This document shows positions 19,403-37,658 of a DNA stretch of 59,626 nucleotides, in pieces. Source of the stretch: Oscillospiraceae bacterium (lineage in GTDB: Bacteria > Bacillota > Clostridia > Oscillospirales > Oscillospiraceae); contig JAFSCD010000009.1 of NCBI GenBank assembly GCA_017436955.1, positions 1 through 59,626 on the forward strand. Reading direction: 5' to 3'. Every line of letters begins with the position of its first letter. Within the stretch, counting starts at the first letter, position 1. The position numbers were made by a program, and so were the translations under genes. Under the pieces are notes generated by a model, which had not been told where the DNA came from, did no database searches, and was given only the letters and a program-made list of their open reading frames with translations.

Positions 19403-19420
19403 AAAAATTGCGCATAAGAG

Positions 19421-19695
19421 ATCTTCTTCCATCCAGACTTTACTGTCGGTATTGGAGTTTCACCAATTCAACGCCGAAGCGCTCGCGGACTGTTTTGGGC
19501 AACTTCTGCAATACACTCGCCGCCGGAATAACGGTCCTTTTGCCGCAACTCTTCGCTTTGAAAACCTTGAAATACGCAAAGTATTCCTACGGCTTCAAAG
19601 CTCGATTTGCTACAAAAATCCTCGTTATCCGCCTGACGATCGCATTACAGAATTTGCCCACCGCCGGTCGGGAATTGCACCCTGCCCTGAAGATG
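19421..19695 (-). promoter_or_regulatory. FMN riboswitch (RFN element) with a greatly extended P3 arm
   Basis: Reading the minus strand, the RFN core is clear: P1 start CATCTTC, P2 GGGCAGGGTGCAATTCCCGA, then CCGGCGGT, AGTCCGCGAGC, P5 TTGGTGAAACTCCAA, P6 CCGACAGTAAAGTCTGG and P1 end GGAAGAAGAT. Between CGGCGGT and AGTCCGCGAGC, where P3 normally has a loop of a few to some twenty bases, there are about 160 nt. The insert begins with GGGCAAATTCTGTAAT and ends with ATTGCAGAAGTTGCCC, which pair and so prolong P3. The core aptamer appears intact. Confidence 0.93.
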
Positions 19696-35731: not shown

Positions 35732-36571
35732 TCAGTTATCCAGGGGCGTCAAATGGTCGAATTTCTTCTGGCAGCGGTTGCAGCGGTAGAAGGCGGAGGA
35801 GAAGCCCTTGCGCAGACGGCTGCGCTTGATCTTATTCCGGGCGATGGCTGCGCCCCAGAAGCCGCCGCCAACAAGACCGGCTGCGAAAACAAGGAAAAGG
35901 AGATCGATCCTGTCGTAGGGAATGAAGAAGCTGGAAACTGTACCGAGCAAAAGCATCGTGACAACAGACATCAAAGGGATCAGCAGCTTGGTAAGGAACT
36001 CCGTTGCGTTCTGGCACTTGACCTTGTTTTTCATTTCCCTGAGGTCATCACTGCCGCAGGCAGGACACTTTGCTTCGCAGAAAATGTCCACAACGGTCTT
36101 GCTTTCTTCCTTCTTTTCCGCCGGCTTCGGTGCGACCTCGGGAGCCGCTTCGGGCGGTACCACCTTGGCAGGCTCGGCATCCAGAATACCGCGGATACGG
36201 GCGATCAGGGTCTCCATCGCCTCTGCCTTTTTCTGATAGGCGGAGTAGCGCTGCGCGCCGGTCAGCAGGAAATTGAATTCGTCATTGAGGGCGCAATCCT
36301 CCAGCATAAAGGGCAAAATCACTTTGCCGTTGTTCACGGCGGCATCCAGCTCTTTCAGCACCCATTGGGAATTTTGCGCATTGTCGGAAAGGATCAGCAG
36401 AAAGATCTTGCAGTTGCGGATGGCGGTGGGGATCTCCTTGGTATAGTTGGAGCCGCCGGGGATGTCCCGGGGTGCCATCCAGCAGGAAAGCCCGTTCTTT
36501 TCCAATACGTTGCGCACCGTTTCCGCCTGCGCCTGATCAACGGTACTGTAGCTGACAAAAATCTCTTTCAT
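35732..36571 (-). CDS. TIR-domain protein with membrane segment and split CxxC pairs
   Basis: A 279-residue protein. Residues 1-130 are a TIR domain: MKEIFVSYSTVDQAQAETVR, LSCWMAPRDIPGG, and SQWVLKELDAAVNNGKVILP, where Glu74 matches the catalytic Glu of NAD-cleaving TIR domains. A Pro/Ala/Lys linker (about 135-158) follows, then CPAC (169-172), two hydrophobic helices (about 194-216 and 223-245), and CNRC (264-267). The two CxxC pairs could form one zinc ribbon interrupted by the membrane hairpin. Cytoplasmic TIR is likely. Its role, possibly in defence or signalling, is unknown; no other defence gene is adjacent. Confidence 0.87.
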   Translation of the reverse strand: MKEIFVSYSTVDQAQAETVRNVLEKNGLSCWMAPRDIPGGSNYTKEIPTAIRNCKIFLLILSDNAQNSQWVLKELDAAVNNGKVILPFMLEDCALNDEFNFLLTGAQRYSAYQKKAEAMETLIARIRGILDAEPAKVVPPEAAPEVAPKPAEKKEESKTVVDIFCEAKCPACGSDDLREMKNKVKCQNATEFLTKLLIPLMSVVTMLLLGTVSSFFIPYDRIDLLFLVFAAGLVGGGFWGAAIARNKIKRSRLRKGFSSAFYRCNRCQKKFDHLTPLDN

Positions 36572-36673: not shown

Positions 36674-37261
36674 TTAAGATCTAAATTTGCCGCATTTCTT
36701 GCACTGACTGTAGTTGGTGCTGTTATTTGTTCCGCAGTGCTTGCATGCCCACGTGCCGGGTGTGGGCGGTGTGTTAGGCTTATTAGTGTGCGTTTGGGGG
36801 TGGCTGCTAGATGCTGTAGCGACTTCATCGGGGGTGATAGTGGCGTTTGCCGTTGCGCAATGTGATGCCTCATACAGTGCTACATTGGCAGAAATGATGG
36901 TGTTTTGCGTAATTAAGGCAAGTGAACTTACCAACAGAGCCAGTACGTGATATGCACAATACTCAAGAAATGCATACAGTACAGTTTCAGCAATCGATGT
37001 AAGAAATATAACAAAGTTAAAGGTTGTTTCGGTTTCTGTCCATTGATAGTATGTTCCATGAACGACTTCTTCGGTGATTATTGACGTAGTAATAGCCGTT
37101 AAAACTCCATAAATAATTAGAAACCAGAAAAGGATTTTTCCCCATTTTTCCAATCTTTCAGACCAGATGTGAAGATTTGTTGCGGTAGCGTCTCGTTCTG
37201 TGCATTCTTCTAATGTTTTGGGGATGTACTTGTCACTTTTGCCTGAAAACATATTTGCCAT
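36674..37261 (-). CDS. Membrane protein with C-terminal zinc ribbon, behind a structured leader
   Basis: A 195-residue protein that I cannot name. A polar N-terminus is followed by hydrophobic segments at about residues 42-62, 80-100 and 104-125, a Thr/Ser/Pro-rich linker (about 140-170) and a C-terminal zinc ribbon, WACKHCGTNNSTNYSQCKKC. The layout mirrors the zinc-ribbon proteins at 10285-11197 but with the ribbon at the other end. AAAGGAG lies 8 bp before the ATG. A terminator hairpin only 24 bp upstream of the start and a folded leader before it suggest control by transcription attenuation. Codon use is more AT-rich than neighbours. Confidence 0.8.
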   Translation of the reverse strand: MANMFSGKSDKYIPKTLEECTERDATATNLHIWSERLEKWGKILFWFLIIYGVLTAITTSIITEEVVHGTYYQWTETETTFNFVIFLTSIAETVLYAFLEYCAYHVLALLVSSLALITQNTIISANVALYEASHCATANATITPDEVATASSSHPQTHTNKPNTPPTPGTWACKHCGTNNSTNYSQCKKCGKFRS

Positions 37262-37280
37262 TTTTCTCTCTCCTTTAGAT

Positions 37281-37311
37281 AAATAAAAAGTGCGCAGCCG
37301 AAGCTGCGCAC
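37281..37311 (-). terminator. Intrinsic terminator in the leader of the zinc-ribbon gene
   Basis: On the minus strand GTGCGCAGC pairs with GCTGCGCAC around a TTCG tetraloop, followed by TTTTTATTT. It stands between the structured leader and the coding region, where only a conditional or partial terminator makes sense, or it ends a separate small RNA. Confidence 0.88.
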
Positions 37312-37332
37312 GAAAAATGCAGCCTCATCCTG

Positions 37333-37432
37333 CTGCGACACAGTTCACTCCCGTAAATAGGCAATGGTGATTTGGCATACATTTTTACACAAAAAGTATG
37401 CCTACCTACGAGAATATTAAACTGTGTCGCAG
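37333..37432 (-). ncRNA. Candidate structured leader RNA or small RNA (three stacked helices)
   Basis: On the minus strand this 100-nt stretch folds as P1 CTGCGACACAGTT with AACTGTGTCGCAG (13 bp, perfect), an internal loop, P2 CGTAGGTAG with CTATTTACG (9 bp, two G-U), a one-sided bulge of about 13 nt (AAATCACCATTGC), and P3 GGCATAC-TTTTT with AAAAA-T-GTATGCC around GTGT. A promoter begins just upstream so that transcription would start at the P1 5' strand, and a terminator follows 22 nt after P1. GCAGC at the end of P1 can instead pair with the later GCTGC. I do not recognise the family. Confidence 0.6.
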
Positions 37433-37439
37433 GAGTATT

Positions 37440-37468
37440 TTACCACGGTTTGACAGATATTGCAACAA
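37440..37468 (-). promoter_or_regulatory. Promoter of the structured leader
   Basis: On the minus strand TTGCAA - 17 bp - TAAAAT. The predicted start of transcription falls at or next to the first base of helix P1 of the leader. Confidence 0.75.
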
Positions 37469-37504
37469 CATTATTTTGCAATCCCAATAGTTGCCACAAT
37501 CTCG

Positions 37505-37622
37505 GCCCCTTCTATGAGGGGGCTGTCAGCCGAACAGGCTGACTGGGGGAGTGTCCTATCGAATTAGCGACACTCCCTCCGTCTTTTGCTTCGCAAAAGC
37601 CACCTCCCTCAAAGAGGGAGGC
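37505..37622. repeat. Cluster of palindromes (probable dispersed intergenic repeat)
   Basis: Successive hairpins without coding content: GTCAGCC/GGCTGAC, GGGAGTGTC/GACACTCCC, CTTTTGC/GCAAAAG and CCTCCCTC/GAGGGAGG. GC-rich, unlike the AT-rich flanks. It occupies most of the gap between the leader promoter and the promoter of the isomerase-like gene. Repeats with CCTCCCTC-AAAGAGGGAGG are, from memory, frequent between genes in related gut Clostridia. Confidence 0.65.
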
Positions 37623-37658
37623 GAAGCAACACGACGCACAAGACAAGTCTTTTGTTTA

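Follow-up and report, generated by a model that had tools for sequence, protein, structure and literature searches.

A 59,626-nt contig from an Oscillospiraceae bacterium (JAFSCD010000009.1, assembly GCA_017436955.1; hereafter the window) carries, on the minus strand between positions 37,468 and 37,281, a promoter, a long hairpin, and an intrinsic terminator directly ahead of an open reading frame (ORF) for a 195-aa membrane protein. What is a folded and terminated RNA doing just before a gene? The window hairpin belongs to a large RNA family that occurs in many gut-type Clostridia, directly downstream of the promoters of surface, lipoprotein, zinc-ribbon, and regulator genes. From sequence comparison, we consider it likely that this is a class-wide family of cis-acting transcription attenuators, in which the terminator would be switched by competing pairings of the linker (L) that precedes it; the comparison shows both the helices named below and their mutual exclusion.

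The window leader and its relatives

The original prediction, made from the window sequence, described a promoter (TTGCAA-17-TAAAAT) followed at once by a fold of three helices, an intrinsic terminator with a TTCG loop, a ribosome-binding site (RBS), and the gene at 37261-36674. All of these are present on the minus strand, in the order promoter, P1, P2, P3 hairpin, one-sided bulge, linker, TTCG terminator, AAAGGAGAGA, and ORF, and the 13 perfect base pairs claimed for P1 join 37431-37419 to 37345-37333. The 209-nt leader folds at −80.1 kcal/mol, compared with −51.1 ± 4.2 kcal/mol for 200 dinucleotide shuffles (z −6.99, with no shuffle as good). Its terminator hairpin is GTGCGCAGC-TTCG-GCTGCGCAC followed by a T-tract (37311-37285), and in the window copy, strand Y of P3 shares 3 nt with the top of P2. 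The features are listed here in the order of transcription, with z values from the cis-versus-trans segment test described in the next section.

37460..37465, minus: −35 box TTGCAA (sequence; TTG spacing matches the family)
37437..37442, minus: −10 box TAAAAT, with TGG just upstream (sequence; position of the family TANNNT)
37419..37431, minus: P1 5′ strand, at the predicted transcription start or adjacent to it (13 perfect pairs)
37400..37412, minus: P2 5′ strand (P2 z −24.1)
37391..37402, minus: Y, the 5′ strand of the apical hairpin P3 (sequence; Y:A′ z −11.3)
37374..37388, minus: A′, the 3′ strand of P3, with Y or L as pairing options (Y:A′ z −11.3, L:A′ z −12.0, triplet counts)
37363..37373, minus: one-sided bulge after P3, 11-13 nt (sequence and family alignment)
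37348..37362, minus: P2 3′ strand (segment test and sequence)
37333..37345, minus: P1 3′ strand, pairing with 37431-37419 (z −20.7)
37312..37330, minus: L, the linker, putative 5′ strand of the antiterminator (with T5) or partner of A′ (L:T5 z −9.3, L:A′ z −12.0)
37303..37311, minus: T5, the 5′ strand of the terminator hairpin (T5:T3 z −12.0)
37299..37302, minus: TTCG terminator loop, in part used by L:T5 (sequence)
37285..37298, minus: T3 and T-tract of the intrinsic terminator (sequence; family terminator helix 99.7% paired)
37267..37276, minus: ribosome-binding site AAAGGAGAGA (sequence)
36674..37261, minus: putatively controlled gene, a 195-aa membrane protein with a C-terminal zinc-ribbon-like motif (ORF, weak Pfam matches)

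A blastn search with the window element found matches in 35 of 149 relatives, mostly to the terminator half. We then relied on covariance models, which were trained on family members and run on genome samples that overlap between searches. At the order level, a model of 18 units (R1, E ≤ 0.001) detected the unit in 143 of 394 genomes, representing 74 of 168 genera. The full-fold model (R2, E ≤ 0.0001) detected it at the class level in 98 of 391 genomes, representing 57 of 223 genera, and at the genus level in 53 of 121 genomes (12 of 34 among the better assemblies). The phylum-level sample consists mostly of other classes and doubles as a false-positive control; there, R2 found the unit in 1 of 398 genomes, the window's own. 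In the genome samples searched, the family is confined to the class. Thirty-nine genomes, picked for having units, hold 2 to 15 unit matches each. Seven candidates were scored per genome in the order, class, and phylum searches, so that copy numbers are lower bounds, and reverse-strand echoes occur among the matches (the third match in the window genome is one), so that there can be more matches than copies. Scanning named contigs with a pattern that demanded a canonical P1 end gave at least 80 loci, labeled mostly Clostridia, Oscillospiraceae, Ruminococcus, or Ruminococcaceae; among the matches listed are many animal gut or rumen samples and one labeled Flexilinea. A match at 1523-1736 of locus L033, along with many genus-level matches of ≈190-220 nt, seemingly represents a longer subfamily with an enlarged internal domain and a similar P1 and terminator.

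Units also occur in four contigs of a viral collection (L213-L216), each before an ORF; L214 has a terminase-like gene by eye. When the unit of locus L028 was used as a query, a fecal record labeled bacteriophage (MT835845.1, L217) matched over the full length at 78.8%, and a second record matched over 38%. The unit in MT835845.1 likewise precedes an ORF, but this record also has a bacterial-looking ORF by eye and may therefore be non-phage. Plasmids, searched by blastn with the window element only, gave no match.

Competing pairings of the linker

To count units, we removed from 148 model matches one reverse-strand echo, two matches cut by locus ends, and nine identical sequences, leaving 136. 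The R2-based alignment (A6; 116 rows, 112 distinct) was fitted to the P1/P2/P3/terminator structure and leans that way, and its pair counts still contain one echo row and one cut row. Across these four helices, 94.7% of cells are paired, with 685 both-side changes compared with 197 in shuffles. P1 is paired in 97.1% of cells and shows both-side change at 11 of its 13 pairs, and the terminator helix is 99.7% paired. The original prediction had set homologs with compensatory changes against homologs lacking them; we find such changes in every helix (P1, P2, P3, and the terminator).

Two further helices, L:A′ and L:T5, lie outside the R2 model and were spotted by eye. The first is 92.3% paired, with 85 both-side cells compared with 19.9 in shuffles (0 of 500); the second is 90.3% paired (0 of 500 shuffles as high), with 29 both-side cells compared with 15.3 (1 of 500). 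Slid partners fare much worse than L:A′, L:T5, and the model helices. In most relatives, a CUC at the border of P3 and the bulge pairs with a GAG in the linker, a helix that is 94.5% paired.

A second line of evidence is independent of the alignment. Here, we compared the duplex energies of segments from the same unit (cis) with those of segments from different units (trans); 10 of the 136 units lacked an anchor and were left out, and 56 of the remaining 126 share less than 80% identity and were used. The z values are −20.7 for P1, −24.1 for P2, −11.3 for Y:A′, −12.0 for L:A′, −9.3 for L:T5, and −12.0 for T5:T3, with 0 of 5000 permutations as good for each proposed helix, whereas five nonpartner control pairings range from −0.8 to +1.8. 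The cis preference persists in the 34 units whose P1 start differs from TGCGACAC and for each half of A′:L. It can also be seen among 19 units that share 8 multi-unit loci (L:A′ p 0.0008, L:T5 p 0.02, P1 p 0.0001): L:A′ is better in cis for 13 of them and equal for 4, and L:T5 is better for 11 and equal for 5.

The same test speaks to the switch that had been proposed for the window copy, in which GCAGC at the end of P1 would pair with a downstream GCTGC. On paper, this pairing is possible in the window copy, but it shows little cis preference across the family (P1b end:L z −1.7; P1b:T3 z −1.2 and −2.1, compared with −9 to −12 for the conserved alternatives), and folding of the window copy in ViennaRNA yields just a related local hairpin, in which GCAG pairs with CTGC in the linker and P1 stays intact. 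Of the predicted attenuator or small-RNA layout, the structured leader with a terminator before the gene is supported, and the switch pairing named for it is not. We likewise dropped a competitor suspected by eye, a repeat of the P2 3′ strand beside P3 (X:X′1 competing with X:X2; X:A′ z −0.3).

How A′ is shared between Y and L can be seen in one alignment column, where the Y-A′-L triplet reads A-U-A in 31 and G-C-G in 26 of 110 rows, A′ retaining both partners through the changes. In this column, 86 rows allow both pairings, 17 allow that with L alone, 2 allow that with Y alone, and 2 allow neither. The mean duplex energies of the competitors are similar (Y:A′ −14.4, L:A′ −15.8, and L:T5 −15.2 kcal/mol), with the terminator at −18.6 kcal/mol. 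The unpaired bases that are conserved, namely the GG of the P3 loop, the UC of the bulge along with a few of its U residues, and the GCA after P1, are partly explained by L:A′ pairing.

In the mechanism that we propose, transcription would start at the first bases of P1, and the 5′ end of the leader would be locked in a long P1-P2-P3 rod. The strands Y, A′, L, T5, and T3 would form a chain in which each pairs with its neighbors, giving two alternating states. In the read-through state, Y:A′ and the antiterminator L:T5 would form together, T5:T3 would be blocked, and polymerase would enter the gene. In the stop state, A′ (the P3 3′ strand plus the CUC) would leave Y for L, allowing T5:T3 to form and the transcript to end ≈147 nt from its start. 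The P1-P2-P3 domain probably senses a cellular signal by setting A′ on Y or on L. We infer that A′:L would form as a pseudoknot within one molecule, possibly by bending at the P1/P2 internal loop, and that an effector, whether a small molecule or a protein, would stabilize it. Folding of transcripts ended before T3 gives at least 5 expected L:T5 pairs in 55 of 56 units, consistent with a model in which L:T5 forms before T3 is made; at full length, at least 5 expected Y:A′ pairs are found in 44 of 56. As to polarity, we lean slightly toward read-through as the kinetic default, with effector binding turning the gene off, and the opposite polarity is possible. The leader would in this respect act like a transcription-attenuating riboswitch, with ligand binding as a putative feature.

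Placement before genes and the balance of evidence

The family keeps its promoter in register with the fold. In 126 of 136 units, a TANNNT element starts exactly 11 nt upstream of P1; 128 units have an extended TGN −10 (TGNTANNNT within 20 nt), and 117 have a correspondingly spaced TTG −35, compared with 5.8 expected from mononucleotide shuffles. From this fixed distance, transcription very probably starts at base 1-2 of P1.

What comes after the T-tract varies: of the 136 units, 94 precede an ORF that has an RBS-like site, 18 an ORF that lacks one, 12 another unit, 2 the edge of the locus, and 10 none of these. An RBS-preceded ORF start lies within 110 nt in those 94 units, compared with 18.5 expected at random positions of the same loci, and the start codon follows the T-tract by a median of 22 nt (quartiles 19 and 24.75). 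In line with the layout of the original prediction, 76 of 136 units have an RBS-preceded start 14-30 nt past the T-tract, compared with 3.9 expected. The rule that accepts ORFs without an RBS is loose, finding an ORF at random positions in 60.3 of 136. Some loci hold tandem arrays of two to four units, with a promoter and a terminator for each unit in L085, L087, and L052. In the arrays at 6629-7438 of L085 (before a SLOG-like gene) and 4748-5370 of L087 (before an XRE-like gene), the P1 sequences diverge with pairing kept.

A dedicated promoter and a strong terminator, repeated for each unit in the tandem arrays that were read, would also suit a small-RNA gene whose ≈147-nt terminated transcript acts in trans, the neighboring gene being read through only occasionally. 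Such a gene would sit comfortably with the 12 units that precede another unit and the 10 that precede nothing recognized. It would leave the covarying antiterminator and its competitor without a role, however, and it is at odds with the excess of RBS-preceded starts and with the enrichment of secreted proteins and lipoproteins among the targets described below. We regard a trans-acting small RNA as improbable.

The abundance of palindromic copies, some of them in tandem and some in viral-classed contigs, could further suggest a mobile palindrome (a miniature inverted-repeat transposable element, or one like the repetitive extragenic palindromic elements) that carries a promoter and a terminator along. 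Flanking target duplications, which the original prediction had associated with this possibility, show no clear excess: in a simple, crude test, 8-nt direct repeats shared by the 60 nt upstream and the 30 nt downstream flank 11 of 136 units compared with 8.3 expected. The two copies of the window genome are only 73% identical, same-locus pairs are 0.60-0.87 identical, the −10 element is fixed in place, and compensatory changes are found throughout, all of which make a mobile palindrome very improbable indeed.

For the linker switch in cis, we weighed a number of observations that count against it. Geometrically, the A′:L pseudoknot must span P1 and P2, requiring a bend or an opening of the rod. 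L:T5 is the weakest of the helices; its pairs with both-side changes number 5, a value reached by 113 of 500 shuffles, one of its pairs is unformed in 34 of 101 cells, and the unit at L094:5696 barely forms it (−4.7 kcal/mol). For L:A′, the pairs with both-side changes number 8, reached by 29 of 500 shuffles, and the outer A′ columns are weaker, often pairing with Y only (34 of 88 in one). No CUC is present in the window copy, whose L:A′ duplex, at −13.8 kcal/mol, is weaker than the family mean. In a full-length ensemble without pseudoknots, the terminator has a median probability of 0.38 over the 56 units and of 0.99 in the window copy, where read-through must therefore be kinetic or assisted. 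Lastly, for 10 units no downstream gene or further unit was detected, and the 18 that precede only an RBS-less ORF are no more than chance would give.

Targets, candidate signals, and known systems

Starting from 115 downstream ORFs, we analyzed 108 targets, leaving out 7 judged doubtful (one of them, the 236-aa ORF of L086, without strong reason). Together, they match 70 Pfam families, among which are BspA-type LRR_5 (17), HTH_3 (7), AMP-binding (3), Zn_Ribbon_1 (3), SLH (2), M23 (2), and YAcAr/SLOG (2). The expectation that similar, zinc-ribbon genes would be the common target is not borne out by so diverse a set. The 195-aa window product itself matches DUF7577 (19.2 bits) and Zn_Ribbon_1 (15.3 bits), both too weakly to reach the curated Pfam cut-offs, and the second unit in the window genome precedes another membrane protein, with zinc-ribbon-like Cys pairs at its end by eye. 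For enrichment, 37 targets were compared with 494 background ORFs by simple ad hoc rules, in loci L072-L151 only. Signal-like N-termini are found in 17 of 37 targets compared with 73 of 494 other ORFs, lipoboxes in 8 compared with 15, and two or more CxxC motifs in 7 compared with 31; membrane helices beyond the N-terminus are not enriched (4 of 37 compared with 69 of 494). We also considered defense genes as a theme and set them aside, as the names of the most frequently matched PADLOC models among the 108 targets (HTH_VI, RmrA, Control_protein, and capH) suggest HTH-type regulators; other systems have a few single matches. Taken together, the targets look like the output of a general signal for surface and regulatory genes, not of one pathway.

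Several features of the surroundings were noted along the way. Downstream of the controlled gene in the window, a minus-strand gene at 35732-36571 encodes a TIR domain (TIR_2, E 1e-23) and, toward the C-terminus, shows weak zinc-ribbon matches. At 37500-37640, immediately upstream of the promoter, GC-rich inverted repeats (CCTCCCTC...GAGGGAGG and AGTCAGCC...GGCTGAC) look like a separate repetitive palindrome. In the 20 scanned loci, tRNA genes lie near units in 5 (L065, L002, L025, L041, and L050), a count made with no chance comparison, and a Gut-1 RNA (RF01706) lies beside the unit in L065 (2217-2507).

As to what the leader might sense, three candidates were rejected as general effectors on the basis of 28 unit-bearing genomes: c-di-GMP, with no GGDEF match in 15; ANTAR proteins, with no match in 14; and BglG/SacY-type proteins, with CAT_RBD in 0 of 28 (the search control was positive in 4 of 14 reference genomes). 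The DAC domain of c-di-AMP synthases is found in all 28, and also in 11 of 14 control genomes, so that this result amounts to nonexclusion only. We tentatively suggest a riboswitch class for a general signal, such as a second messenger or a stress metabolite, that would set the expression of surface, lipoprotein, and regulator genes, with its linker shared by a pseudoknot and an antiterminator, and that would extend across the class and into viral-classed contigs; we give this proposal somewhat less than an even chance.

Alternatively, an RNA-binding protein could bind the P1-P2-P3 rod and operate the same switch. P1 is often conserved beyond pairing, 22 of the 56 nonredundant units beginning TGCGACAC, strongly conserved internal-loop bases are few, and one leader at many scattered targets would suit a global regulator. 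On the other hand, P1 varies widely provided that its pairing is kept, and the two protein families considered are wanting, ANTAR in half of the 28 genomes and CAT_RBD in all of them. Protein control is in our estimation a credible minority prospect, and its probability overlaps with that of the cis-acting attenuator, with which it shares the switch.

Among known systems, the family resembles the terminator-type riboswitches, with which it shares a 5′ leader location, a structured domain, an exclusive choice between antiterminator and terminator, and a start codon soon after the T-tract. It differs from these in having no Rfam match and no single target pathway and in a fold that begins at, or close to, the predicted transcription start. 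In Firmicutes, T-box leaders, which have a stem I and a specifier, choose between an antiterminator and a terminator as well. The family shares this choice, but it has no Rfam T-box match and no stem I or specifier by eye, and aminoacyl-tRNA and amino-acid genes are absent from the 25 commonest Pfam families of its targets. In type III toxin-antitoxin systems such as ToxI-ToxN, repeated RNA units can precede one gene, and the layout of promoter, structured RNA, terminator, and gene is similar. Unlike these systems, the family has units of ≈150 nt with their own promoters before genes from a wide range of unrelated families, and the 25 commonest target families do not include ToxN. ANTAR proteins recognize a small site of paired hairpins that is not apparent in the family. 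Antitermination control of leaders in Firmicutes by ANTAR, as presented in PMC3369931, is a shared principle, but for half of the 28 unit-bearing genomes the protein is missing.

The original prediction had called the leader unrecognized, in agreement with Rfam 15, which at the gathering score gave no family covering the element, either in the window or at 20 loci. In permissive runs on two copies, the matches were all subthreshold, the best being MIR6217 at E 0.004. Elsewhere in the window, Rfam identifies a flavin mononucleotide riboswitch on the minus strand at 19417-19569 (66.6 bits, gathering score 66.2). Our literature searches, judged from titles and abstract openings in listings that were in part incomplete, found no description of the unit; among the papers listed for its sequence strings, none seems, from its title and opening lines, to be about bacterial leaders. 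Fremin and Bhatt 2021 (PMC8040213) reports 3161 candidate structured RNAs in human microbiomes, likewise including gut candidates directly upstream of genes, with HTH_XRE as the commonest downstream domain. The family may be listed among those 3161 entries. The family is probably undescribed, and its kind, the orphan riboswitch-like transcription attenuator, is known.

If our interpretation is correct, roughly one in four genomes sampled from the class (98 of 391) would rely on a single undescribed RNA switch to control surface and secreted proteins, in bacteria known largely from metagenomes. The family offers a testable orphan, with a predicted start, a defined terminator, compensatory mutants that can be taken from the alignment, and a target set that hints at the signal. 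The copies on viral contigs suggest, in addition, that phages may read the same signal as their hosts.
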